In this document: one piece after another, positions 4,648 through 63,001 of the stretch
Numbering within the stretch: the first letter of the stretch is position 1
Layout of the letters: the number at the start of each line of letters is the position of its first letter
From: Verrucomicrobiia bacterium
Lineage (GTDB): Bacteria > Verrucomicrobiota > Verrucomicrobiia > Limisphaerales > CAIMTB01
Assembly: GCA_019634625.1 (NCBI GenBank)
Contig: JAHCBA010000026.1
Location: 1-64,000, forward strand
Direction: 5' to 3'
Length of the DNA: 64,000 nt
Notes under the pieces: generated by a model
What the model saw: the letters and a program-made list of their open reading frames with translations, nothing else
What the model was told of the DNA's origin: nothing
Database searches by the model: none
Translations under genes and position numbers: made by a program

Positions 4648-4660
4648 CGGGTGCCGGGCG

Positions 4661-4819
4661 GTGCATCCCCAAGTTGTCGGTAACGAGCCAGCGAATCGGA
4701 GGGACGAGCTCCGCGAGTCCTCAACCCAACGCTCCACACCGTTGCGGCCTCGTGGAACTCGACCCTCCGAAGCGCCGCTTGGCGCCATTCGCGGCTTTAC
4801 CCACAACTCCGGGATGCAC
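4661..4819 (+). repeat. Dispersed repeat R1, full copy (nested inverted repeats)
   Basis: About 159 bp, bounded by imperfect 20-22 bp terminal inverted repeats: 'gtgcatccccaagttgtcgg' on the left and the complement of 'gtgcatcccggagttgtggg' on the right. An inner pair of inverted arms, 'cggagggacgagctccgcg' and the complement of 'cggagggtcgagttccacg', frames a short loop. Related copies occur at 22084, 56238 and 62773, with fragments at 52697 and 60609. It encodes nothing and sits between the WD40 and kinase genes. Confidence 0.8.
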
Positions 4820-4907
4820 GGGGTGCCGGGGAAGGGCCATGAAGAATCTCTCAGCCGCCGCCGTTGTCCGGTAACCTCTCCCGCGCCGTGTCTCAGGAAG
4901 CCCTTGC

Positions 4908-13421: not shown

Positions 13422-14009
13422 TCATGGATCCCCGCGACGCCGCACTCTCGACTCGACTCTGTCCCAGAAATGGCGGAACGACGCGGAGTGGGGCCGCGCC
13501 CGCCCAGGGTCAAACTTGGTTGCCATGGACTTTGCGAAGTCGATCTCATTAAAGCTGGCCTGCTTGCCAAGGCGGTTCCGCAGGAGCGAGCGCACCTTGC
13601 CCTTGGCAACCCTTCCAGTATCCGAGGGTGCACTCCATGCGCATCCCGGAATCACGGCGTTGATCGCGGCCGCATCAGCCAGGTACCATGATTCCAGTTC
13701 CTTGACCGCAATGCACACCTGAAGGAAGCGGGCGCCCTTGTCTGGAAGAAGCACGACACTCCGGACTGCCGCATCAAACAGTTCAAAGACACTTCCCAGG
13801 CAGGGGTCGTCGTCGAGATCCACAAGGACGAATCCAGCCGTGTAGCGGCAGTCGCGGAAAGTCTCCAGCAGTTTTGGCGTTTCGCGGATGAGTTTGTCGC
13901 GGTTCTTCATGTTTCTCACGTCAAACCTGCAACCGCGAAAATGCTTGTGGAAAACCTTGTTCCAGAACTGATAGTCCGAAGGTCCCTCGACCCCGATGCC
14001 GATGGTCAT
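13422..14009 (-). CDS. TOPRIM-like DUF4276 family protein, ATPase partner
   Basis: 195 residues. The start is ATG 14009, which overlaps the TGA of the ATPase gene as ATGA; an in-frame start at 14039 would overlap further and is disfavoured. The N-terminus 'MTIGIGVEGPSDYQFWNKVF' gives a conserved acidic E8. 'FVLVDLDDDPC' (60-70) gives a D-x-D-D cluster (D64, D66, D67). Together these match the E...DxD metal-binding layout of TOPRIM nucleases, seen in DUF4276/DUF4435/RloB-like proteins paired with SMC/OLD-like ATPases. Nuclease activity in an anti-phage two-gene system is inferred, not proven. Confidence 0.75.
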   Translation of the reverse strand: MTIGIGVEGPSDYQFWNKVFHKHFRGCRFDVRNMKNRDKLIRETPKLLETFRDCRYTAGFVLVDLDDDPCLGSVFELFDAAVRSVVLLPDKGARFLQVCIAVKELESWYLADAAAINAVIPGCAWSAPSDTGRVAKGKVRSLLRNRLGKQASFNEIDFAKSMATKFDPGRARPHSASFRHFWDRVESRVRRRGDP

Positions 14010-15235
14010 GGTATCCCTCCCAGGGTCCCCTGCTCCCATAGTTCACCCAGACGGAAGTGTTTGCGAAAGGACTTGATCTCCGCCACCTCCGAGGCGTGGC
14101 GGACCACCGTGAATCCTTCAGCCTTGTCACATAAAAGCACTTCCTCCGGCTCCAGTTCGTCGAGGAAATCCGGATTGTGAGTTGTGACGAGCACCTGACG
14201 GGTTTCCGAGGCCGTACGAAGCAGTTCCACAATGTGCCCGGACAGGTGCGGGTGCAGGCCATTCTCCGGTTCCTCGATGGCAAGCAGCGTCGATCGGCGG
14301 GCCGACCAGTGCGCGATGACCATCAAGGCCAGCAGGCGGATGGTGCCATCGGAAACGGACCGGGGATTAATGGCACCACGGATGCGGTCCTCAACCACTT
14401 GAAAAGTCCACTTGCCCTCAACTTCGAGCGGCTTTGTCCGTACGCTCTTGAATCCCGGCACGGCACCGCGAAGACCGTTCAGAATCTGATCCAGCGAACC
14501 CTCATCCCCGTGTTGCTTCTCCAATTTGTGCAAAATGGCGGCAAGGAACTCCCCCGATTCGCCAAGCGCCAGCTCGGGCACTTCCTTGCACGGCTGCCGG
14601 GCAATCGAGGGGCTGATGTTGTAAAAGGACCACCCTTCGATGTAGTCGCGGAACAAAACCAGCGGTGGGCTCAAAAACGCCGCGCCAGCCGCCAGCCGCG
14701 AGCTGTCCCGGGCCTCGATGGGAATCGACTCGGTTGGAGTCTTGCGAAAAATGCCGTCGTGGAGGATGACCTCACTCCGGGTGCGCTCCATCCTGTATCG
14801 CAACTCGGTTTCACTCCCTTCCGTGGCTTCAACCATGACCACCCCAAGATTCTCTCGCAGCACGAGTGGCTCTTCATCATTCGACCGGACATCGATCTCC
14901 ACAAGGTAATCGAACGACCTGACATTCAGGGGGGCCGCCTTCACACGCCGGAATGTTCCCAGCTTCGCACCATCGATCCTGAGAAGCAGCCGGACTGGCT
15001 TCGCCTCCTTGCGTTCACGCTGGATCTTGTTGCGAACCTCGCCCGGCCCTTCAAACTCGCCCACCGCAATCTCCACGTTCTGCAGCAATGCGATCTTCAG
15101 GAAACGGAGTGCTGAGAGAAGATTCGTCTTGCCAGAAGCATTGGCACCTACAACGAAATTCAGGGGTCGCAGAGATAGCGGATTCATCTCAGAACCGAAA
15201 CTCTTGAAGTTCTCGACCTGAAGACGGGTGATCAT
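14006..15235 (-). CDS. AAA/ABC-type ATPase (AAA_15/AAA_21, OLD-like)
   Basis: 409 residues. 'ITRLQVENFKSFGS' is the typical N-terminus of RecF/OLD/SMC-like ATPases. Walker A is 'VVGANASGKTNLL' (28-40), an ABC-like signature is 'SVSDGTIRLLALM', Walker B is 'LLAIEEPENGLHP' and the switch histidine is in 'VLVTTHNPDF'. No C-terminal TOPRIM is fused; that function is supplied by the overlapping downstream gene. The arrangement resembles PARIS (AriA/AriB), AbiL-type and other ATPase/nuclease abortive-infection pairs, without matching one of them exactly. It lies directly downstream, on the same strand, of the SUMF1 and TIR/MoxR genes. Confidence 0.85.
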   Translation of the reverse strand: MITRLQVENFKSFGSEMNPLSLRPLNFVVGANASGKTNLLSALRFLKIALLQNVEIAVGEFEGPGEVRNKIQRERKEAKPVRLLLRIDGAKLGTFRRVKAAPLNVRSFDYLVEIDVRSNDEEPLVLRENLGVVMVEATEGSETELRYRMERTRSEVILHDGIFRKTPTESIPIEARDSSRLAAGAAFLSPPLVLFRDYIEGWSFYNISPSIARQPCKEVPELALGESGEFLAAILHKLEKQHGDEGSLDQILNGLRGAVPGFKSVRTKPLEVEGKWTFQVVEDRIRGAINPRSVSDGTIRLLALMVIAHWSARRSTLLAIEEPENGLHPHLSGHIVELLRTASETRQVLVTTHNPDFLDELEPEEVLLCDKAEGFTVVRHASEVAEIKSFRKHFRLGELWEQGTLGGIP

Positions 15236-15281
15236 AACGACCGTGCGATGGTCGCGGAGGAGCCAGTCGTTGTAAACGCCA

Positions 15282-15360
15282 TACCGGAGGGATGACAGTC
15301 ATTGGTCGCGGGTCGAACCCCGGCCAATTTCTGGAACCCCTCCCGATTTCACCGTCGGTC
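15282..15360. repeat. Repeat R2 (partial) and shared 3' flank of the SUMF1 cassettes
   Basis: It begins 'ccggagggatgacag', as do the copies at 16393 and 23487, then diverges. The following 'ggccaatttctggaacccct' and 'ccgtcg' match the 3' flank of the larger SUMF1 gene at about 16617-16656 ('ggctaatctctggaaaccct', 'ccgtcg'). The two SUMF1 genes therefore share homologous DNA well beyond their stop codons. Confidence 0.55.
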
Positions 15361-15514: not shown

Positions 15515-16372
15515 CTAAAGCTCCTGACCTGCGGCCAAGCGAAAGCCCCGGAAGTAGTCCCGGAAGCCAGGGTCCCTGAGGGACCGGAAGGCGGCACGGC
15601 AGTCGCGCGCGCGGTCGATCCACGAGCCGCCGCGGACCACCCGGTTGGCGCCATCCTCTGCGGGGTCATGCTCAGGATCCACCACCTCCTCCGCACCGTA
15701 CGAGGACCACCCATCCCGGCACCACTCCCAGACGTTCCCGTGCATGTCGTAAAGCCCCCATGCATTGGGACGCTTCTCCTTCACGTCGTGGGTTTGCCCT
15801 CCGCTGTTTTCGCCATACCACCCCAGCCGCTCCAGGGCCGGGTCCTTCCCTCCCGGCACCGTGCAGGCCGAGCCGTCATGAAACGCTCCCGTCGTCCCGG
15901 CCCGGCACGCATACTCCCACTGCGCCTCCGTCGGCAGGGTGGCAGACAGGCCGGGAACCGCTTCCGACAATTGTGCGGCGAACGCGACCCCCTCGCGCCA
16001 CGTCACCCGCTCCACGGGACGCCGTTCGCCCTGGAACTGGCTGGGATTCTCTCCCATCAGCGCCATCCACTGTGCCTGGGTCACCGGCGTCTCCCCCATC
16101 CAGAATCCCTGGGTCAGGGTGACCTCGTGCTGTGGCCCCTCATCGTCCCAGCGCCCCGTCTCGTCCTCCGGCGATCCCATGCGAAACCGCCCTCTCGGAA
16201 TCCAGCGCCACACGAACTCCACGCCCTTCAAGGTGAACGCCGCAAACACCCCATGCCGATCCTCCCCGAACACCTCCGCCCACACGGGCGGAAAGAAGGG
16301 GATCAACGGTGCCTCGATGACGTCGGGTTTGCTCACGGGAGAACCAGCGCCGCCAACCCTCGCCTCCTCCAC
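15515..16372 (-). CDS. SUMF1/FGE-fold (C-type-lectin-like) protein with DGR-type variable C-terminus
   Basis: 285 residues from GTG 16372 (a GTG at 16336 is an alternative). The SUMF1 domain spans about residues 50-285: 'FVWRWIPRGRFRMGSPEDE', 'GFWMGETPVTQAQW', 'LPTEAQWEYACRAGT', 'NAWGLYDMHGNVWEWCRDGW' and 'RVVRGGSWIDRARDCRAAFR', ending 'RGFRLAAGQEL'. True formylglycine-generating enzymes have a catalytic cysteine pair near the C-terminus; it is absent here, so ligand binding rather than sulfatase maturation is likely. The last codons before the end are hypervariable relative to the paralogue at 16683-19526 in the manner of a diversity-generating retroelement. No signal peptide, so presumably cytoplasmic. 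Confidence 0.88.
   Translation of the reverse strand: MEEARVGGAGSPVSKPDVIEAPLIPFFPPVWAEVFGEDRHGVFAAFTLKGVEFVWRWIPRGRFRMGSPEDETGRWDDEGPQHEVTLTQGFWMGETPVTQAQWMALMGENPSQFQGERRPVERVTWREGVAFAAQLSEAVPGLSATLPTEAQWEYACRAGTTGAFHDGSACTVPGGKDPALERLGWYGENSGGQTHDVKEKRPNAWGLYDMHGNVWEWCRDGWSSYGAEEVVDPEHDPAEDGANRVVRGGSWIDRARDCRAAFRSLRDPGFRDYFRGFRLAAGQEL
15551..15646 (-). other. Variable region A (putative DGR VR)
   Basis: Aligned codon by codon with 16845-16940, this segment differs at 13 of 32 codons: AAC/AGC, ATC/GGC, GAC/CCC, CGC/CAC, GAC/GTC, TTC/TAC, TCC/TAC, CTC/CGC, AGG/TGG, TTC/GAC, GAC/GGC, TAC/AAC and TTC/GGC. Every change is at codon position 1 or 2, all but one of the variable codons end in C, and all other codons are identical to the base. 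This is what adenine mutagenesis of AAC template codons gives. The adjoining 32 bp (15519-15550) is identical in both genes and would be the homing-initiation segment. Confidence 0.85.
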
Positions 16373-16392
16373 CCCATGCGCCCCTCCTCCGC

Positions 16393-16490
16393 CATCCCGG
16401 AGGGATGACAGACATTAGCCGGGGGTCGAACCCGGCCCCGCGGGTTCGACCCCCGGTTCCCATCCCATTTCGTCCTCACCCCGGCCGGGG
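16393..16490. repeat. Repeat R2, copy between the two SUMF1 genes
   Basis: About 98 bp beginning 'catcccggagggatgacag', closely matching 23487-23580. It contains an inner palindrome in which 'ccgggggtcgaaccc' pairs with 'gggttcgacccccgg'. The gene-free stretch 16373-16682 consists mainly of this repeat plus GC-rich 3' flank of the vWA/SUMF1 gene; no ORF or promoter is evident. Confidence 0.6.
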
Positions 16491-16682
16491 TGACACCGAC
16501 ACCGCCCCATGGAACCTCCCATCGCCTCCACACCCCCTGCGACCCCGTCCGGGGTCGGCTCGTCCGTTGCGCTACCCGCTCCGGGGGTATCCCCCGCGGA
16601 CGCGGGCTCAACCCCCGGCTAATCTCTGGAAACCCTCCGGGTTTCGCCGTCGTTCGCTCCAAGGGATGGAAGAACCGCATTC

Positions 16683-19526
16683 TCATGTCGCCTCGAATAT
16701 CTTGCCGCCGCTCCGCGGCGGGCGGGGCCTCCGGGCTTCGTCCCTCAGCCCCGGCTCCGCCTCTCCGGCCCCCGATCCGGGCGCTCCGCTCCCTCGCGGC
16801 TCCGCCGCCCCGAGCTCCTGACCTGCGGCCAAGCGAAAGCCCCGGCCGTTGCCCCGGTCGCCAGGGTCCCAGCGGTACCGGTAGGCGGCACGGCAGACGC
16901 GCGCGTGGGGGCCCCACGAGCCGCCGCGGACCACCCGGCTGGCGCCGGCCTTGGTTTCGAGGACCGGATTCACCCCCGACTCGGTCTCATACCGGTCACG
17001 CCACCCATCCCGACACCATTCCCAGACATTGCCCAGCATGTCGTACAGCCCCCACGGATTCGGGTCCTTCAGCCGGACCCGATGGGTGCCGGCCCCCTCG
17101 TGCGGGTGCCGCTTGTTCGGCCAGTCCCGGCTGTCGTGGGGATTTCTCACCTCGACATCGAGCCCACTGTTCCCTCCATACCACGCAATAGGATCCAGTT
17201 CCGGCGCATTGTTCTCGCCCTCGATGGTGATACCCCCCGTGTACAGGGCTGTGGTCGTCCCCGCCCGGCATGCGTACTCCCATTGCGCCTCAGTGGGCAA
17301 TCCGAACCCCGGCCCCATGGGCAGCACCCCATCCAGCAGCCGGCAAAACGCCTCGCAGTCGGTGTGGCTCACCTGCTCGACCGGAAGGTCGACCGGCCCC
17401 TGGAAGTAGCTGGGCGAAGGATTCACCCCCCCGGCCTCGCGACCCGCCGCCTCGACCACCGCCCGCCACTGCGCCTGCGTCACCGGCGTCTCGCCCAGCC
17501 AGAACCCCCGCGACAGCGTCACCTCATGCTGCGGACCCTCCCAGTCGGCGCGGCCCGGCTCGTCCTCGGGCGATCCCATGAGAAACGTCCCCGGCGGAAT
17601 CCATCGCAGCCCAAACCTCACCCCCCCCACCTCGAACTCCGCGGCGAGGCCAAACCGGTCGTACGTCATCCGCTCCGCCCATGGCGGGCGTTCGAGGGCC
17701 TCGAAGCGGACGCGATGGATATCCGAGACAAGCGTCATGGCGGTCGGTCTCTCGATCTTCGGAAGCTCAATCACCTCGCCCGGCTCCGTGATGCGGTAGC
17801 TGTGGTGTCCTCCCGCGGGCGACGGGAACCCAACATGGATCCGGGGACTCGCGGCCCGAAATCCCCCCAGCGGAACCGCTTGGCCTCCCGCGCTGCCCGA
17901 CACCGCCGGGATGAGCCGCAACGACGCGAAGCGGGCCTGCCCGGCCAATTCGATCCGGTACTCGACAGGCTCGGGATAGCGGCTCGCCGCCTCGTCCGTG
18001 ATCTGCCGAAAGGTCTCCTCATCGACACCTTCCGGGACGCGCACATGCACGCTCTTCAAGGCGGCATGCGCGAGGGCGAGTCCCTGGGCCACCAGTTCCC
18101 TGGCCGCGGGATCTCCCCGCATCGTCGGCGACAACCGTCCGACCATGTCGATGAACCACCTCGGAATCGCGCCCTCCGAAGGCGCCCGATCGGCGGTCGA
18201 TGTCGCCAGCAACCAGAGCCGATCCACCACGGACCGGAGAATCCCCTTCGCCCTTTCCATCGCGGTGTCATCCGGCGACCCGCTCAGGCAGGCGCGCAAT
18301 TCCGCCTCGACTGCAATAGCCAGGCTCACGGACCGGTGATGCTCGCGAATGAGCCTCCCAACGTCCTTGAAGAGCGCCGGGTCCTTCCTGCCCGAGGTTG
18401 AGCGACGTTGAAGCCGGCTGTCATACGACTCACCCGGGGAAAGCCCGAAGCAATCCGGCCCCCGCCAGCAGTCCGCGTGGTGCCAGGCGTCCCACTCGGT
18501 GCCGGCATCCGCACCAGCCCCCAGCCGCAGTCGGGCCGCGCGAAGCAGCGGAGCCTCGATCCGGCTGGACGGTGCCAGCAGATCCAGGAGTCCGTCCGCG
18601 GTGGAACTGTCATCCTCAATCGAAACCGCCGCCGGCTGCCGCAGACCGCCATGCCGGGGAAGGCGATGTCGCCGATCCCAGACCGCACCGGGCCAGGCCC
18701 TCGCGACCTCCTTCTTCCAGCGCCCCCTCGGACATGGCGTCAGCACTTGTATCGGGTGGCCACGAGACGCCAGATAGCCGGCCAACGCCCGCCAGGCGGC
18801 CATCGTTTCCCCGGACCGAATGAACTGTCCCAGCGCGGAGAGAAGCACAATGGGCGTTCCCGGTGGAATCCCCGCCACCTGGGCCGGTGCGGGAACCGAA
18901 CGAAAGACGCGAACGCCCAACCCGCCGGCACCGCGCTCCCGCTTCAATCGCTGGATCGCCCACTCGATGTCGCACCGGAACGGGTCCATCTCCGAAGTGG
19001 CATCCCACCAGATCGCGGCCTGGGGTGCCCATGCCAGCCGCGACCGACGAGGCAGGGCCGTGACCGGCAGCCCCTCGCCGATGTGCCTCGTCAACCGGCG
19101 CAGGTCGATGCGCGTGCTGGCCGTCACCGCACCCAGCCGTCGCTTCAGGAATGGCGCCAGCCGCGCCCAAGGATTCAGAGGCCGAATCGCCGGATCCGGT
19201 ACCGCCCAGTTCACCTCCAGAGCTGCATCCGAAATCGGGTTCCCCCGCGGGCGGGCACGCTTCTGGGAAGGCGTGGTCTCGGCCTTGACGGCGACGAGGA
19301 ATCGCAACCGCCCGCGTTCGGCAGGGATGGAAGGTGGAACCGGCAACGACCCGCCCTGGCTTCCGCTTGCCTCGACTCCGTCGTCGGGCTTTCTCCCGGA
19401 CCCGACATGACTCCCGGCCTCGGCAAGACGCTCGTACCCGAGCAAGCGCGCCATCGCCTCGAAGTCACCCGTCTTGCCTCGCAAACGAAGCAGATCCGCT
19501 CGACCGAGAGCCGGGAAGGTCTTCAT
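16683..19526 (-). CDS. vWA-like / SUMF1 protein of a MoxR-vWA ternary conflict system, DGR-type variable C-terminus
   Basis: 947 residues from ATG 19526, which overlaps the MoxR stop as ATGA; a longer ORF back to 19835 only shadows MoxR. Residues about 160-275 resemble a degenerate von Willebrand A fold: 'AIWWDATSEM' in the MIDAS position, then 'GTPIVLLSALGQF' and 'HPIQVLTPCPRGRW'. The middle is helical and unassigned. Residues 638-905 are a SUMF1 domain ('LRWIPPGTFLMG', 'TEAQWEYACRAGT', 'NPWGLYDMLGNVWEWCRDGW', 'RVVRGGSWGPHARV') lacking the catalytic cysteines of true formylglycine-generating enzymes. Residues 863-894 are hypervariable against the paralogue at 15515. The stop used by the paralogue is replaced here by GGG, adding about 42 residues that translate the downstream GC-rich segment. 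Confidence 0.8.
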   Translation of the reverse strand: MKTFPALGRADLLRLRGKTGDFEAMARLLGYERLAEAGSHVGSGRKPDDGVEASGSQGGSLPVPPSIPAERGRLRFLVAVKAETTPSQKRARPRGNPISDAALEVNWAVPDPAIRPLNPWARLAPFLKRRLGAVTASTRIDLRRLTRHIGEGLPVTALPRRSRLAWAPQAAIWWDATSEMDPFRCDIEWAIQRLKRERGAGGLGVRVFRSVPAPAQVAGIPPGTPIVLLSALGQFIRSGETMAAWRALAGYLASRGHPIQVLTPCPRGRWKKEVARAWPGAVWDRRHRLPRHGGLRQPAAVSIEDDSSTADGLLDLLAPSSRIEAPLLRAARLRLGAGADAGTEWDAWHHADCWRGPDCFGLSPGESYDSRLQRRSTSGRKDPALFKDVGRLIREHHRSVSLAIAVEAELRACLSGSPDDTAMERAKGILRSVVDRLWLLATSTADRAPSEGAIPRWFIDMVGRLSPTMRGDPAARELVAQGLALAHAALKSVHVRVPEGVDEETFRQITDEAASRYPEPVEYRIELAGQARFASLRLIPAVSGSAGGQAVPLGGFRAASPRIHVGFPSPAGGHHSYRITEPGEVIELPKIERPTAMTLVSDIHRVRFEALERPPWAERMTYDRFGLAAEFEVGGVRFGLRWIPPGTFLMGSPEDEPGRADWEGPQHEVTLSRGFWLGETPVTQAQWRAVVEAAGREAGGVNPSPSYFQGPVDLPVEQVSHTDCEAFCRLLDGVLPMGPGFGLPTEAQWEYACRAGTTTALYTGGITIEGENNAPELDPIAWYGGNSGLDVEVRNPHDSRDWPNKRHPHEGAGTHRVRLKDPNPWGLYDMLGNVWEWCRDGWRDRYETESGVNPVLETKAGASRVVRGGSWGPHARVCRAAYRYRWDPGDRGNGRGFRLAAGQELGAAEPRGSGAPGSGAGEAEPGLRDEARRPRPPRSGGKIFEAT
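16704..16722. other. GC-rich hairpin downstream of variable region B
   Basis: A 7-bp stem (ccgccgc / gcggcgg) with a 3-nt loop 'tcc', homologous in position and core sequence to the 12-bp hairpin at 15405-15431. Here it lies inside the read-through C-terminus of the vWA/SUMF1 gene rather than after the stop codon. Its conservation beside a second variable region supports a role in targeting rather than termination. Confidence 0.55.
16845..16940 (-). other. Variable region B (putative DGR VR)
   Basis: Counterpart of 15551-15646. The identical 32-bp block 3' of it (16813-16844) encodes 'RGFRLAAGQE' and would be the initiation-of-homing sequence. Variable residues relative to copy A are S, G, P, H, V, Y, Y, R, W, D, G, N and G, positioned in the loop-rich end of the C-type-lectin-like fold that DGRs usually diversify. 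No template repeat (the same segment with AAC codons) was found in the window. Confidence 0.85.
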
Positions 19527-20533
19527 ACCCCGTCGGACAAGTCCTTCTTCAAGGCAAATGGGGCGATCTCCTTCAGCGCCCCGCGCTGCCGCTCCGCATC
19601 GCCAGGGTACATCTCCACCAGGGCCCGGATCAGATCGAGGAACTCCGCCGCGCCCGGGACGATCAGCGAATCCCTCGCGGCACTCGTCCGCTCGGCCAAC
19701 AACTGATCCACCACGATGCGACAGACGGCGTCGTTGATCTGTTCGGGTCCCCAGAAGACCCGCGCCCGCTCCTCGATCAGGAAGTGCTCCGCCTCCTCGC
19801 GTCCCGCCGGAAATGGCATCTTCAGGACGAGGCATCGCCTCATGAACGCAGGTGGCAGTTCACGCTCGCGATTGGTCGTGATGATGACCAACGGAGCCGG
19901 CGCACCCGGCTTCAAGGCAACGGGCTTATCAAGCTGGGCCGTTCGAAATCCTCGCCCCCCCAGGGCCTCAAGAAGTCCGTTCGGAACCGAGGGATCGGCC
20001 TTGTCGATCTCGTCCACCAGCACCACCGGCCCGCACGGTCGGGCCGCATCGGGGGACCAATCGTCGGGCTTCGCAGGCACCTCGCAGGTTCGGCAATGTC
20101 TCGAAAAGGTCTCTGCCTGCCTTTGCGCATCCGCCCATGCGAATGCCCACCACAGGATGCCCGGCCGGATGAAGTTCGGCTCGGCCAGTCTTGCCCGCCA
20201 GCCATCGGCGTCCCTGCCGGCCGTCACCGCACTCACCTGGGCCTCCGCCAGCCTCGCAACCGCATCGTACGAGTACATCAGGTCGTCGCGTTCGGTGCGT
20301 TCGTCCACGACGTGATACAGGAAGGGCACTCGAACGGCCTGGGCCACGGCCCGCGCCACCTGGCTCTTCCCAATCCCCGATTCGCCTCCAAGCAGCAACG
20401 GGCGTTGCGCCGCGATCGCCGCCTGCACCGCCCAAACGGTCTGAGGATCGAACCGATGCCGGGTTGGCGGCCAGGAATCCTGCTGGGGAATCTCGATCGG
20501 CGTTGACAGGTCTGGGGAGAAGTCGAGGGGCAT
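19523..20533 (-). CDS. MoxR-type AAA+ ATPase of the TIR/vWA conflict operon
   Basis: 336 residues. Walker A 'LLLGGESGIGKSQVARAVA' (47-65), Walker B 'PVVLVDEIDKADPSVPNGLL' (169-188), sensor-1 'LVIITTNRERELPPAF' (215-230) with arginines R232/R233 just after it: a complete MoxR/McrB-like AAA+ core. It ends in an ATGA overlap with the vWA-like gene and starts 36 bp after the TIR gene. MoxR ATPases act with vWA proteins as remodelling modules; in the ternary conflict systems described computationally they are thought to hold or release an effector on sensing. Here the effector would be the TIR protein. Confidence 0.88.
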   Translation of the reverse strand: MPLDFSPDLSTPIEIPQQDSWPPTRHRFDPQTVWAVQAAIAAQRPLLLGGESGIGKSQVARAVAQAVRVPFLYHVVDERTERDDLMYSYDAVARLAEAQVSAVTAGRDADGWRARLAEPNFIRPGILWWAFAWADAQRQAETFSRHCRTCEVPAKPDDWSPDAARPCGPVVLVDEIDKADPSVPNGLLEALGGRGFRTAQLDKPVALKPGAPAPLVIITTNRERELPPAFMRRCLVLKMPFPAGREEAEHFLIEERARVFWGPEQINDAVCRIVVDQLLAERTSAARDSLIVPGAAEFLDLIRALVEMYPGDAERQRGALKEIAPFALKKDLSDGV

Positions 20534-20569
20534 GGGGACTGGATTCGGACTCGGTTGGGTGAGCGTTTG

Positions 20570-22003
20570 CTAGGTCGCCCGGGAACTCTTCCGGGCCTCG
20601 ACCTCCTCATAGATCTTCCACAGGAATCGCAGCGCCCGTACGTAATCCGTCAGCAGGCCCTGCGGGTCATCCCCGCTGGGATGAATGAGCAGGAGGTCCT
20701 CGACCTTCAGTTCGCGACGTATCAGTTCGGTCAGTTCGCGGTAGCCGTCTCCGCTGGCCACGTAAGGGGTCCGATCATCCCGGTAGGCTGCGGAAATCAC
20801 CGCCTTGGCCCGATTAAACTGAATCTCGATCCGCCGGGCGTCCCCGGCATCGACAGGCTCGTCCTTCAGGATGTACCGGATGAAGTGCAGCTTGATCTCC
20901 CGGGCCAGATCGCCGGGCAGTATCCCCTTCATCACCTTGGAAACGCCAGGCATGCGAAACTCGTCGAGTGGCGGCCTTCCAAACACCTTCTCGAGCCGGG
21001 CCATGCCGCCCGCCAACGCGCAGCCGGCGACGTGAAGGAGATTGGCCGTGCGTCCTCCGCCCACTCCGATCGATTCGTCATCCGCCGGATACTCCGCACT
21101 CTGGCACCGGGCCGCTTGGCGGCTGCGGAGAACCCACTCCCGATCGACGGCCAGAACCACCAGTCCACCCGCCCATTCACCCAGCGCGCCCCAATCCAGC
21201 CGGTCTCCGTGGAAGTCCGGCAATCCGCCGACGATGGCACCGAGATGAGGACATACATCGAAGCGTCGTGAGGCGACGTCTTGCGAGAGACGCCACCTTG
21301 CCCCCTCCCACCGGACGAGTCCGGTCGTCGTTCGCTCCAGGAACTCCCGCAGGACCTGACGCCTCGCCAGAAGCGCCTCCATCTCGCTGACCGTCTGGGC
21401 GTAGATCTCGGCCAGTTGCGTTGCGTCCGGGAAACTCTCATCGACCCACTGACGGTACGCCTCCGCCGAACCCGGCGAGAGCTGGTCGGCAATGAACTGC
21501 AGTATCGCGTCCACGTTGTCGGCGATCTCCTTGATCCTGAAGAACTCCGCCAGCGTTCCGGGAGCCAGCCCGTCGGTGGCATTCCTCTCGATGACCGGCT
21601 TCACCCGTTCCCTCTCGGCTCGCCAATGGTCGAGATACATTGCACGCGAGACGATGTCCCGTATTCCCGTCGCGTCCGGCATCACCCAAGCCTTGACCTG
21701 TCGGCGGAAGCTCTCGGTGTCCTCTCCACTTCGCTTCCAGGCGATCAGGAGTTCATACATGCAGTTGGGCGACCGCAGGTAGGCCTCGCTGAGGAAGACG
21801 CACAGGAAGTCCGATGCGCCGATCGTTCGCATGAACCCGGTCAACGAGTCCCCGTGCCGAACCCGATCCGTGTCGCGAATCACCTCGACACCTCGCGACC
21901 CGAGGTGCGTGCAAAACGCATCCACGGCTCCGCGACAAGTCCCATCCCTCTCCTCCTTCCAGGAGTACGAGACCGCGACTTTGGGTTGGCCGTCGGGCGA
22001 CAT
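20570..22003 (-). CDS. TIR-domain effector protein
   Basis: 477 residues from ATG 22003; the upstream in-frame extension to 22120 runs into repeat R1 and is rejected. The TIR domain (about 7-150) shows 'PKVAVSYSWKEE', 'FCTHLGSRGVEVIRDTDRVR', 'GDSLTGFMRTIGASDFLCVF', 'LSEAYLRSPNCMYELLIAW' and 'RAMYLDHWRAE'. E84, within 'CMYELL', occupies the catalytic glutamate position of NAD+-cleaving TIR domains. Residues about 150-477 are mainly helical and not recognised, possibly an adaptor to the MoxR/vWA partners. First gene of a three-gene minus-strand operon. NAD+ depletion on activation is inferred. Confidence 0.85.
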   Translation of the reverse strand: MSPDGQPKVAVSYSWKEERDGTCRGAVDAFCTHLGSRGVEVIRDTDRVRHGDSLTGFMRTIGASDFLCVFLSEAYLRSPNCMYELLIAWKRSGEDTESFRRQVKAWVMPDATGIRDIVSRAMYLDHWRAERERVKPVIERNATDGLAPGTLAEFFRIKEIADNVDAILQFIADQLSPGSAEAYRQWVDESFPDATQLAEIYAQTVSEMEALLARRQVLREFLERTTTGLVRWEGARWRLSQDVASRRFDVCPHLGAIVGGLPDFHGDRLDWGALGEWAGGLVVLAVDREWVLRSRQAARCQSAEYPADDESIGVGGGRTANLLHVAGCALAGGMARLEKVFGRPPLDEFRMPGVSKVMKGILPGDLAREIKLHFIRYILKDEPVDAGDARRIEIQFNRAKAVISAAYRDDRTPYVASGDGYRELTELIRRELKVEDLLLIHPSGDDPQGLLTDYVRALRFLWKIYEEVEARKSSRAT

Positions 22004-22083
22004 GGCGTTCTGGGCGATGCCCGCGTTGCCTACCCGTTTTGCCCCGCCGCCGCAAGGGCGGCAATGGGGCCAACTCCTTGCAC

Positions 22084-22196
22084 GATGCATCCCGGAGTTG
22101 TGGGGGAGCAGGCAGCGCATCGGAGGGACGAGCTCCGCGAGTCCTCAACCCAATGCACCACACCCTTGCGGCCTCGTGGAACTCGGCCCTCCGATC
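22084..22196 (+). repeat. Repeat R1, copy lacking its right terminus
   Basis: It starts 'gatgcatcccggagttgtgg' and has both inner arms ('cggagggacgagctccgcg' and the complement of 'cggagggccgagttccacg'). It then runs directly into the composite repeat array at 22208 without the right terminal inverted repeat. It lies about 80 bp 5' of the TIR gene start. Confidence 0.75.
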
Positions 22197-22301
22197 TCAC
22201 CACCCTGCTTCACCCTTCGGAGGGACGAGCTCCGCGAGTCCTCATTCCAATGCACCACTCCATTTCCCCCTCTCCCGTCCTCGTACTCAGCCCGAAGGGC
22301 G

Positions 22302-22508
<207 letters not shown>

Positions 22509-22581
22509 GTTCTGCTGCAAAAAGGCTGAGGTGCGCTGGCAGGGCAGGGACGTGGAGGGGGCAAAGGCTGGGACGGACTCT

Positions 22582-22650
22582 GTTGGGTGTGCACGCTGTA
22601 GCGTGTCGGGGCGGATGTGGGAGGCTCACGCTGAAGCGTGGACACCCAAC
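22582..22650. repeat. Repeat R4, copy 1 (inverted repeat with inner palindromes)
   Basis: Ends 'gttgggtgtgcacgct' and the near-complement 'agcgtggacacccaac', with inner short palindromes 'cacgctgtagcgtg' and 'cacgctgaagcgtg'. A second copy lies at 23021-23089. REP-like in form; no coding capacity. Confidence 0.65.
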
Positions 22651-22769
22651 GGCCCCTCCGATCCCACCTCTTCCGCTTCACCCTTCGGAGGGACGAGCTC
22701 CGCGAGTCCTCATTCCATTGCTCCACTCTCTTTCCCCCTCCCACGTCCTCGTACTCAGCCCGAAGGGCG

Positions 22770-22946
22770 GTACTCGTAATCGTCCTCGTCCTCGACTCGC
22801 AGGCACACCGTTTCAGCGTCGCCTCATGGCTGGCCCGATGGGTTCGATCCTGTTCGAACCTCCCATTCCGCATGCGAACAGGGCAGGGCAATTACGATTA
22901 CGATTACGATTACGAGGACGAGGACGATTACGAGGACGAGTACGAG
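22770..22946. repeat. R3 hairpin minisatellite, copy 2 (9 hexamers)
   Basis: Same left arm and loop as copy 1. The right arm (from about 22890) is one degenerate AATTAC, three GATTAC, two GAGGAC, then GATTAC, GAGGAC and GAGTAC. Different hexamer types and number from copy 1 at the same place show independent turnover of the array. Confidence 0.8.
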
Positions 22947-23020
22947 GCCCGCTGCAAGAGTCTGAGATGCGCTGGGAGGGCGGGGACGTGGTGGGGGGGG
23001 TAGAGGCTGGGTCGAACTCT

Positions 23021-23089
23021 GTTGGGTGTGCACGCTTTAGCGTGTCGGGGCGGATTTGGGAGGCTCACGCTGAAGCGTGGACACCCAAC
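23021..23089. repeat. Repeat R4, copy 2
   Basis: Near-identical to 22582-22650, including the terminal 'gttgggtgt' / 'acacccaac' arms and the 'cacgctgaagcgtg' palindrome. It sits at the same relative position in unit 2 of the composite array. Confidence 0.65.
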
Positions 23090-23208
23090 GGTCCCTCCGA
23101 TCCCACCTCTTCCGCTTCACCCTTCGGAGGGACGAGCTCCGCGAGTCCTCATCCCAATGCTCCAATCCCTTTCCCCTTCCCCGGGACTCGTACTCAGCCC
23201 GAAGGGCG

Positions 23209-23352
23209 GTACTCGTACTCGTTCTCGTCCTCGACTCGCAGGCACACCGTCTCAGCGTCGCCTCCTGGCGGGTCCGATGGGTTCGATCCTGCTCGCACCT
23301 CCGATTCCGCACGCGAACAGGGCAGGGCGAGTACGATTACGATTACGAGTAC
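23209..23352. repeat. R3 hairpin minisatellite, copy 3 (4 hexamers)
   Basis: Left arm and loop match copies 1 and 2. The right arm has only GAGTAC, two GATTAC and GAGTAC (23329-23352), then breaks off into 'cagcggcgcacc' and the R5-like fragment. This is the shortest of the four arrays in the window. Confidence 0.8.
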
Positions 23353-23364
23353 CAGCGGCGCACC

Positions 23365-24065: not shown

Positions 24066-24893
24066 ATGAAGACTCGTTATTGCAACGTCGCGGGCCCTGC
24101 CCCACGCAAGGGATTCACGCTGATCGAACTCCTGGTGGTGATCGCGATCATCGCGATTCTCGCCAGCATGCTGCTGCCTGCCCTGGCCAAGGCCAAGGGG
24201 AAGGCTCACGCCGCCTCATGCCTCTCCAACCTGCGTCAGTGGGGAGTGACGTGGCATCTGTACGGCCAGGATCACGAGGACAAGCTGCCGACGGGCTCCA
24301 CCGTATCCTGGGCCCGCGGAGAATGGTTCAACGCCCTGCAGCGACGGATCGGCGAACGCAAGGATCTCCTGCTGTGCCCGGTAGCCACCCGCCGTCGCCC
24401 GATCCCGAACGCGAAGGGCTTCGAGGCCTTCGGCGGTGTGCAGTACGCCTACGAAATGGGCCTGGGCGAACACGCTGAGGGCGAAGCGGCCAGCTACGGT
24501 GCCAATCTGTGGATGTACAAGGCCGACGACGACATCCAGGGCCGCATGCGGGAATGGCATTGGGGCACCCTTACTCCCGTGGCCAACGTCACTGAGATCC
24601 CACTCATGGGCGACTCGATGTGGCGCGGCGGGGGCCCGCACTACGCCAGCCGCATCGCCTACAGTCCGCCCGAGCAACCGGGGACCTACTCCAGCATCGA
24701 GGGCTTCGCCTCATACGAGATGCAGCACTTCGCCCTGCCCCGCCACGATCGCCGGGTCCAATTCGTGTACTTCGACGGCTCCGCACGGGCGATCCGCCCG
24801 CGCCAACTGTGGGCACAGCAATGGCACCGCGAGTGGGATCCAGAGGCTTACAAGACCATTGTCTCCTTCCCCGCCTGGTTGCGCGGCAACTGA
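24066..24893 (+). CDS. Prepilin-type N-terminal cleavage/methylation domain protein (pseudopilin-like)
   Basis: 275 residues from ATG 24066 (ATG 24057 is an equal alternative). The type IV prepilin/pseudopilin leader is explicit: '[19 protein letters not shown]', with cleavage after K-G, the +5 glutamate and a 20-residue hydrophobic helix. '[20 protein letters not shown]' then 'NLRQWGV' is the standard continuation in planctomycete and verrucomicrobial members. The C-terminal '[17 protein letters not shown]' matches the H-x9-D-G motif of that group. Assembly by a type II secretion or pilus-like machine at the inner membrane is presumed. These genomes hold many paralogues of unknown job. Confidence 0.9.
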
Positions 24894-56117: not shown

Positions 56118-56237
56118 GATCTGACACCGAATCCCCCCCCCGGGAATGCTCCGGCTCCGGGAACACGGCGAAGGCGCGACCCTCCCCCTCCCACCCGCCT
56201 GCCATCAAGGACAACCGCTCCGCTTCGGTGTCCACCC

Positions 56238-56360
56238 GTGCATCCCGGAGTTGTGGGCGAGAAGGCAGCGGATCGGAGGGACGATCTCTGCGAGTCCTCA
56301 ACCCAGCGCTCCACACCCTTGCGGCCTCGTGGAACTCGGCCCTCCGAAGCGCCTCCGCCC
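56238..56360 (+). repeat. Repeat R1, copy without a clear right terminus
   Basis: 'gtgcatcccggagttgtggg' then 'cggagggacgatctctgcga' and the matching right inner arm 'ctcgtggaactcggccctcc'. It ends near 'gaagcgcc', and no right terminal inverted repeat is seen before the arsenate reductase stop. Confidence 0.7.
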
Positions 56361-56389
56361 GGGAGATCCGGACCCTGTCCCTTGCCGCG

Positions 56390-56839
56390 TCATGGTGTTG
56401 TGGGGGAATGAGCCTCCAGCGCTCCGGGCAGGGATTCGACAAACCGCCGGATCTCGTCCCGAACGCGCCGGTAAACGGCCAGCTTCTCCTCTCCGTCCGG
56501 GAGATGCCCTGTCAGCTTCGGAGGGTCTTCAAAGCCGGCATGCACGATGCGCGCTCCACCCGGAAACGCAGGGCAATGTTCATCCGCATGACCGCAGACC
56601 GTCACCACGTAATCGAACCCGACGGGTCCGATGTCGGCCGGCGTCTTGGAGAACTGCCGGGAGATGTCCACGCCGGCCTCCGCCATCACCTGAACCGCAT
56701 GCGGATTCATCCCGTGCTGCTCGATTCCGGCGGAGAACGGCTCCAGGAGGTCGTTCTTGAGGTGGCGGGCCCAGCCTTCAGCCATCTGGCTGCGGCAGGA
56801 GTTTCCCGTGCAGAGGAACAATACCTTCAGCTTTTCCAT
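56390..56839 (-). CDS. arsC: Arsenate reductase, thioredoxin-coupled (low-MW PTP fold)
   Basis: 149 residues. The P-loop 'LFLCTGNSCRSQMAEGWARH' gives C10 and C15. The redox pair is C82 and C89 in 'VTVCGHADEHC'. These are the cysteine positions of the plasmid pI258-type ArsC, which reduces arsenate to arsenite using thioredoxin. No ArsB/Acr3 or ArsR gene is nearby. A perfect 8-bp inverted repeat upstream (56883-56906) is a candidate operator. Confidence 0.92.
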   Translation of the reverse strand: MEKLKVLFLCTGNSCRSQMAEGWARHLKNDLLEPFSAGIEQHGMNPHAVQVMAEAGVDISRQFSKTPADIGPVGFDYVVTVCGHADEHCPAFPGGARIVHAGFEDPPKLTGHLPDGEEKLAVYRRVRDEIRRFVESLPGALEAHSPTTP

Positions 56840-56882
56840 AAGGGATCCGCCGCCCGCTCACCCACGCGCGCAGGACGGCTTC

Positions 56883-56906
56883 ATGTTTCGTTGTGTCGCG
56901 AAACAT
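56883..56906. promoter_or_regulatory. Inverted repeat upstream of arsC, candidate operator
   Basis: 'atgtttcg' and 'cgaaacat' are perfectly symmetrical around an 8-nt spacer, 44 bp upstream of the arsC start, in otherwise AT-richer DNA. Size and spacing suit an ArsR/SmtB-type or other winged-helix repressor. No regulator gene is adjacent. Confidence 0.5.
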
Positions 56907-56954
56907 AAAACAACGCCGCGCTTCGGCTGTCAACGTGTCGATGCCGGAAGGGCG

Positions 56955-57136
56955 GTACTCGTCCTCGTCCTCGAACCCGCAGGTGCACCCTTTCGAGCGT
57001 TGCCTTGTGGCGGGTGCAATCGGTTCGGTCTTGTTCGAACCTCCCATTCCGCGTGGAAACCTGGGAGGGCGAGGGGCAGGGCGATTACGATTACGATTAC
57101 GATTACGATTACGAGTACGATTACGATTACGAGTAC
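56955..57136. repeat. R3 hairpin minisatellite, copy 4 (9 hexamers)
   Basis: The left arm begins 'gtactcgtcctcgtcctcg'. The loop is a diverged version of the 22-23 kb copies ('ggttcg', 'cctcccattccgc', 'gggcagggc' retained). The right arm 57083-57136 is five GATTAC, GAGTAC, two GATTAC and GAGTAC. It occupies most of the 351-bp gene-free gap between arsC and the methyltransferase, 34 kb away from the other copies. Confidence 0.8.
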
Positions 57137-57191
57137 GACGGGAACCCGGGCGGGACTGGCACACTCGCCCGTCGCGTGATGGGATCGACCC

Positions 57192-62681: not shown

Positions 62682-62772
62682 GGGGCGCGGAGTGTAAGTA
62701 CCCGCCGCCCGAGGGCAATCGGCTTCCCACAGCGCCGCAAACACCCCGTGTTCCGCGAACGGGTGCCTCCGG

Positions 62773-62931
62773 GTGCATCCCGGAGTTGTGGGTGAGGAGG
62801 CGGCGAATCGGAGGGACGAACTCCGCGAGTCCTCGATCCAACGCTCCACACCGTTGCGGCCTCGTGGAACCCGGCCCTCCGGGATGACGCGTCGCGAAAT
62901 TCGCACCTCTCCCCACAACTTCGGGATGCAC
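62773..62931 (+). repeat. Repeat R1, full copy
   Basis: Left end 'gtgcatcccggagttgtggg', right end the complement of 'gtgcatcccgaagttgtggg', 159 bp apart (same length as the copy at 4661). Inner arms are 'cggagggacgaactccgcg' and the complement of 'cggagggccgggttccacg'. An extra 'gtcgcgaaattcgcacctct' lies between the inner and right arms, the end type also seen at 52697. It occupies half of the 320-bp gap between the divergent helicase and fabG genes. Confidence 0.8.
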
Positions 62932-63001
62932 GGCTGGCGATTTTATGCCGCGGACGCCGCATTGACATCCGCCCGAGGGTCTCTGCCACTCTCCCCGGAC
63001 C

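Follow-up and report, generated by a model that had tools for sequence, protein, structure and literature searches.

The two overlapping genes at positions 13422–15235 of the window, the whole stretch of 64,000 bp that was analysed, match the HEC-01 module, an already catalogued defence candidate, in the profiles of both their proteins. They probably constitute a mobile anti-phage module of two genes in which an ATPase would serve as sensor and regulator and a DUF4276 protein as Toprim nuclease effector, in other words a split OLD nuclease acting by abortive infection. This defence reading rests on the pairing of the two genes, their intact motifs, purifying selection and the defence context of homologues, together with a predicted fold of the DUF4276 protein that is Toprim-like. 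The OLD-type Toprim assignment of DUF4276, the placing of E106 within its site and of D67 outside it, and the statistics on pairing are added by this analysis.

The window covers the initial 64 kb of contig G000:C26, which is 99 kb long and belongs to a draft genome of 6.7 Mb and 88 contigs. The gene of the OLD-type ABC ATPase (positions 14006–15235, minus strand, 409 aa) is the upstream one and ends in the sequence ATGA (positions 14006–14009, minus strand), the ATG of which is the start codon of the DUF4276 gene (positions 13422–14009, minus strand, 195 aa), so that stop and start overlap by 4 bp. The coordinates, strand, lengths and overlap given for the pair in the initial annotation were all correct when the sequence was read again, which confirms the pair as real and intact. 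Its downstream neighbour is a convergent oxidoreductase gene of the GFO/IDH/MocA type and its upstream neighbour encodes an FGE protein, while promoter and terminator scans gave no signal above chance. A second HEC-01 pair is found on contig 45 of the same genome, at ~39.2–41.0 kb (L001, L002, L033), where the DUF4276 frame is split over two frames, representing either a pseudogene or an assembly error.

Profile searches with AAA_21 and AAA_15, proposed in the initial annotation, matched the ATPase at 9e-30 and 2.5e-18 respectively, and among the PADLOC models its best match was HEC-01A (2.2e-57, residues 1–404 of 408), with secondary matches to AriA (7.4e-31) and AbiLi (1.3e-31). An OLD/RecF-like ATPase with intact Walker A, signature, Walker B and switch His had been read from the sequence, and an alignment of 65 homologues bears this out, all of the following residues being invariant: G30, N32, G35 and K36 of Walker A, S295-D296-G297 of the signature, E321-E322 of Walker B with its glutamate, Q347 and the switch residue H353. 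The invariant positions extend into the C-terminal tail with G397 and W400, and L399, located between them, is counted in the conserved C-terminus. The AlphaFold2 (AF2) model (pLDDT 89) matches PtuA and the heads of SMC/Rad50 with Z about 20–22, and the top match in a sequence search of the PDB was the OLD protein of T. scotoductus (4.8e-18). Distant matches to the ATPase were also found in six phage records.

The partner protein belongs to PF14103, DUF4276 (5.2e-12; 46.8 bits, the cut-off being 30.2), which is the family that the initial annotation had proposed to search for, and its best PADLOC match is HEC-01B (1.1e-14, residues 1–187 of 195). When 72 DUF4276 proteins were aligned, E8, D64 and E106 were found to be invariant and position 66 to be D in 65 and E in five of the proteins, giving a full set of E8/D64/[DE]66/E106 in 70/72, while D112 and D130 are conserved in more than 90%. 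Of the residues first put forward, E8 and D64-x-D66-D67, the former three are thereby upheld but D67 is not; this position is D in just 14/72 proteins and is therefore placed outside the site. The invariant E106 and the near-invariant D112 and D130 were absent from that first list. The window protein shares 13–29% identity with almost all of its 71 aligned homologues and 75% and 48% with the nearest two, and by this measure the window pair is a divergent branch of HEC-01. A further position of variation is residue 155, a near-invariant lysine in the family (65/72) but E in the window protein; the 75%-identical relative carries E155 as well and both proteins have K at position 160, while the DUF4276 protein of L039 has K155 and E160, as though a charge pair had been swapped.

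The fold of the DUF4276 protein was predicted with AF2 (pLDDT 86, pTM 0.84), the region of residues 67–103 around and after the DxD motif being of low confidence. The four best PDB matches of this model are all C-terminal (Toprim) regions of OLD nucleases, with Z 9.7–10.6 and 160–167 residues aligned at an rmsd of about 4.3 (Z 10.6 over 167 residues), followed by a protein of unknown function at Z 8.6 and by clearly unrelated folds at 8.2 or less. A Foldseek search of the model against the PDB gave no match at E < 0.001, the lumazine synthases that ranked at its top being judged generic alpha/beta matches, and a sequence search of the PDB gave no credible match. Comparison of the DUF4276 alignment with a profile of OLD Toprim regions taken from this phylum, using hhalign, resulted in a P value of 1.2e-4, a score of 34.8 and a probability of 55%, while 30 column shuffles run as a control scored at most 14.6, and the alignment places E8 and the DxD of DUF4276 on the corresponding OLD motifs. 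In the OLD protein of B. pseudomallei the ligands of metal A are E400, D455 and D457, those of metal B being E404, T506 and E508 (PMC7049728). Since the alignment begins with residue 1 of DUF4276 against residue 393 of OLD, E8 is aligned with E400 and D12 with E404, and E106 would be the counterpart of the metal B ligand E508. The motif EGPS[D/E] of the window protein is likewise common to OLD proteins, including one in the same genome. Set against the OLD-type metal ligands, an E, a DxD and a second acidic site, DUF4276 presents the invariant E8, D64 and E106 on a predicted fold that matches at Z 10.6, and the protein looks like a Toprim-type metal nuclease (E8, D64, D66 and E106), similar to the cutting domain of the OLD nucleases, as far as the model goes.

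To find relatives of the pair 84,980 species genomes were scanned with the ATPase profile and the best 80 relatives were examined, which come from many bacterial phyla and also from archaea (Methanogenium and Methanothrix). In 74/80 an intact DUF4276 ORF adjoins the ATPase gene, at a distance of no more than 25 bp from the stop of the ATPase in 72 cases and at 99 and 188 bp in the other two. Three more (L040, L073 and L110) show a short or broken DUF4276 trace beside the ATPase, one is truncated where its contig ends, and in two no DUF4276 was detected. The exact 4-bp overlap seen in the window recurs in 49 of 75 pairs, a set made up of the 74 genomic ones and L119, which comes from a viral contig. 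The ATPase is upstream in all 47 of the distinct DUF4276 loci examined. Between the distance matrices of the ATPase and the DUF4276 protein the correlation is r 0.92, as compared to a maximum of 0.22 in 2,000 permutations. The module is consequently near-obligate across many phyla and its pairing is not due to chance. No fusion of the ATPase and DUF4276 was seen among the hits in 387 genomes, the largest open frame being 327 aa. The initial annotation had regarded its interpretation as refutable by homologues that occur mostly alone or next to housekeeping genes; the former is refuted by the constancy of the pairing and order together with the correlated distances, while the latter holds in part, since the two nearest relatives are located beside housekeeping genes.

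Among known systems the agreement is closest with HEC-01, to which both window genes have their best PADLOC matches over full-length profiles, in the same order and with the same 4-bp overlap. HECs are "Hma-embedded candidates", several of them with antiviral activity, HEC-06 being one that is named (PMC12988326), and in the 5.39 million open-access papers searched no mention was found of DUF4276 and nothing relevant on HEC-01. Members of the HEC-01 family are found embedded in Hma loci, as in L056 where a homologous pair follows directly after HmaB and is bordered on its other side by Ppl, whereas the window copy is situated outside any Hma operon. With the OLD nucleases (classes 1–3; B. pseudomallei 6NK8 and T. 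scotoductus 6P74) the pair has in common the ABC ATPase family, the Toprim fold match, the EGPS[D/E] motif and the order of the DxD, but these are single chains, whereas the window encodes two proteins without a helicase or retron partner. The partners that define PARIS, Gabija, AbiL and WonAB were each looked for and not found, and the pair was therefore assigned to none of these systems. PARIS resembles the window pair in having its ATPase (AriA) and its Toprim tRNase (AriB) on separate genes; AriB is, however, a DUF4435 protein, and the window partner scored 15.4 bits against PF14491, where the cut-off is 27, and had no AriB match in PADLOC, while the AriA match of the window ATPase is far below that to HEC-01A. 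An AriB-type DUF4435 profile run for comparison gave one match in 194 genomes, too few to be of use. The AbiLi profile matches the ATPase, as mentioned above, but AbiLii showed no match to its partner at E up to 1, and the UvrD-like helicase GajB of Gabija is absent beside the pair, the place of neighbours being taken by the oxidoreductase and the FGE protein. WonAB is, like the window pair, made up of two genes for an OLD-ABC ATPase and a nuclease, in that case causing abortive infection (PMC12137116), but WonB is a PD-(D/E)xK nuclease while the window partner is a DUF4276 protein with a predicted fold best matching the OLD Toprim.

When comparing the window with the nearest homologue, in a genome of another family of the same order (G017), DNA similarity was found at positions 13462–15216 only, which indicates that the two genes have moved as a cassette. 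The pair differs in composition from its surroundings, with 58% GC and a GC3 of 0.69–0.70 against 66% GC and a GC3 of 0.77–0.86. For both genes pN is 0.12–0.13 and pS 0.73–0.74, and with synonymous sites near saturation this is a lower bound on the constraint; the low pN relative to pS indicates that both genes are kept as working proteins, under purifying selection as judged from the substitutions. The ATPase lineage of the window is missing from four congeners, where the best matches are 4e-24 or weaker, and the orthologue of the neighbouring oxidoreductase is kept in all four. An empty site in these congeners was considered and rejected, as the apparent rejoining at position 24114 of the window (G004) turned out to be a common pseudopilin N-terminal motif; this motif occupies positions 24113–24240, and synteny is mimicked by similar DNA that three of the four congeners carry close to their oxidoreductase orthologue. 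Within the phylum DUF4276 was found in 57/387 genomes, while it was found in 0/14 control genomes. No tRNA or Rfam integration site was found in the window, and no close DUF4276 relatives were found in viral contigs (P0002 query) or plasmids.

Upstream of the pair and on the same strand are genes for a TIR protein, a MoxR-type AAA protein and two FGE-domain proteins. They form an operon at positions 15515–22120 (minus strand), consisting of TIR, MoxR-type AAA, a long ORF with a terminal FGE domain and a single-FGE protein, and this operon may be a conflict system in its own right. The initial annotation had joined it with the pair into one defence island of 13.4–22.0 kb. Several observations speak against this: between the pair and the FGE gene there is a gap of 279 bp containing a copy of a dispersed 49-nt repeat, GC3 is 0.69–0.70 in the pair as compared to 0.77–0.82 in the TIR, MoxR and FGE genes, the nearest homologous pair is without the operon, and in 57 related genomes there is no relative of the TIR protein. 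The repeat, CGCCATcCCGGAGGGATGACAG...GGGTCGAACCC, is present at positions 15277–15325, where it marks a boundary outside the module, and at positions 16390–16438, the two copies being 86% identical and flanking the FGE gene at positions 15515–16372. The two sets of genes are treated here as separate, a functional or historical link between them not being supported, and what stands of the earlier interpretation is the kind of module, ATPase plus Toprim, which agrees with the HEC-01 matches, the Hma and BREX homologues and the OLD-like predicted fold and acidic residues.

Further repeats were also noted. A copy related to the 49-nt repeat is located near 23.55 kb, and a family of dispersed repeats of ~110 bp and tandem arrays, 82–92% identical, occurs across the genome (also at L037, L038 and L033), in the window at positions 22085–23356, 4658–4830, 56225–57138 and 62769–62933. 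The region of 22.2–23.4 kb is a dense repeat array that includes simple hexamer-like runs.

The genomic context of the homologous pairs was analysed for about half of the loci. Apart from the pair between HmaB and Ppl, one (L057) has a DrmD/BrxHI-like helicase on one side and a type III methylase on the other, and the one on the viral contig IMGVR_UViG_3300045256_000750 (L119) is flanked by BrxC and PglX in a BREX operon, HEC-02A being the gene after PglX. The 123 immediate neighbour genes include several type I and IIG restriction-modification (R-M) genes, while no R-M genes are among those listed for a control of 122 genes taken from randomly chosen stretches in genomes of the phylum; the PADLOC families matched number 376 for the neighbours and 32 for the control, a count inflated by overlapping models. 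As about half of the loci were sampled and the control was drawn from a single phylum, this is to be regarded as an enrichment and not as a rule. The neighbourhood statistics asked for in the initial annotation thus favour defence inasmuch as R-M and defence genes are enriched relative to the control, but most neighbours are ordinary, non-R-M genes, and a minority of the family is found beside defence genes. Of the two closest relatives, L039 adjoins a UbiD gene (Pfam) and the closest homologue (L009/L020) is situated among genes that, read from their sequences, resemble metF and the gyrB/parE type.

By analogy with PARIS, WonAB and BREX-linked OLD-ABC modules, the ATPase may sense infection and control a Toprim nuclease. 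Most likely it would dimerise or oligomerise with ATP and bind the DUF4276 protein. It could then keep this protein inactive until an infection cue appears, as in PARIS, where AriA restrains the Toprim tRNase AriB in this way and frees it on sensing phage proteins (PMC12409363). Alternatively the ATPase could be needed to switch its partner on, as in WonAB, where the ATPase is required for the toxicity of the nuclease and translation stops (PMC12137116). Once freed or activated, the Toprim site (E8, D64, D66 and E106 with Mg2+) would in either case cut cellular nucleic acid and the infection would be aborted. Complex formation, nuclease activity, the substrate, be it RNA or DNA, the trigger and the abortive outcome are all suggested here from these parallels.

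A more specific role, as guard of restriction-type immunity, is possible but rather unlikely. The ATPase would in that case sense anti-restriction proteins (Ocr-like) and the pair would back up BREX, Hma or R-M systems as a suicide effector, which fits the presence of homologous pairs within operons of BREX (L119) and Hma (L056) and next to R-M genes of types I and III, the response of PARIS to Ocr known from the literature, and the proposal that TOPRIM-linked OLD-ABC pairs are backup effectors in BREX loci (PMC12839542). The window copy and its nearest relatives, however, have no R-M or BREX partner adjoining them and the majority of the family's neighbours are not R-M genes. A compact operon of two genes with patchy spread and foreign composition could also be selfish, with DUF4276 as a toxin, the ATPase as a mere neutraliser and addiction as the reason for its maintenance, and the name of the ATPase family even bears the words "AbiEii toxin", a label that is no evidence for the window protein. 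This toxin-antitoxin reading is unlikely, as the ATPase retains all ABC motifs including the switch His, beyond what neutralisation needs, is located upstream and is conserved as strongly as its partner, homologues are embedded in immune operons, and the related ATPase of WonAB was needed for toxicity (PMC12137116).

The housekeeping genes beside the two nearest homologous pairs raise the question of a cellular pair for nucleic-acid maintenance, in repair, RNA processing or the cell cycle. Such roles occur in related proteins, the archaeal OLD-family ATPase Cran1 having one in the cell cycle (PMC12796447) and the Toprim RNase M5 processing rRNA (PMC12409363), but they fit poorly with the patchy distribution in the phylum and the controls, the mobility of the two genes as a cassette, their foreign GC3 and the embedding of homologues in defence operons, and a maintenance function is quite improbable. 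Strand and adjacency are what speaks for the pair being a functional part of a larger system of 13.4–22 kb with the FGE, MoxR and TIR genes; the repeat-bearing gap, the difference in GC3, the nearest pair being without those genes and the lack of TIR relatives in the 57 related genomes make this very improbable indeed. The reading as a two-gene anti-phage module with a sensing ATPase and a Toprim effector is the one preferred here.

For the family as a whole we tentatively propose, with somewhat more doubt than confidence, that DUF4276 is a separate family of Toprim effectors with an OLD-like two-metal site, and that HEC-01 is a widespread two-chain class of OLD systems, distinct from PARIS and with its own substrate (e.g. 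a specific tRNA), which has been taken up by BREX, Hma and R-M operons as a suicide effector in reserve. The module is near-obligate in many phyla and found inside several immune systems, yet sequence searching gave no solved relative for DUF4276. The predicted OLD/Toprim assignment with its four named residues would make a catalogue entry testable with a few point mutants, and it would tie HEC-01 both to PARIS, in which the ATPase holds the nuclease inactive, and to WonAB, in which the ATPase is required for activity.
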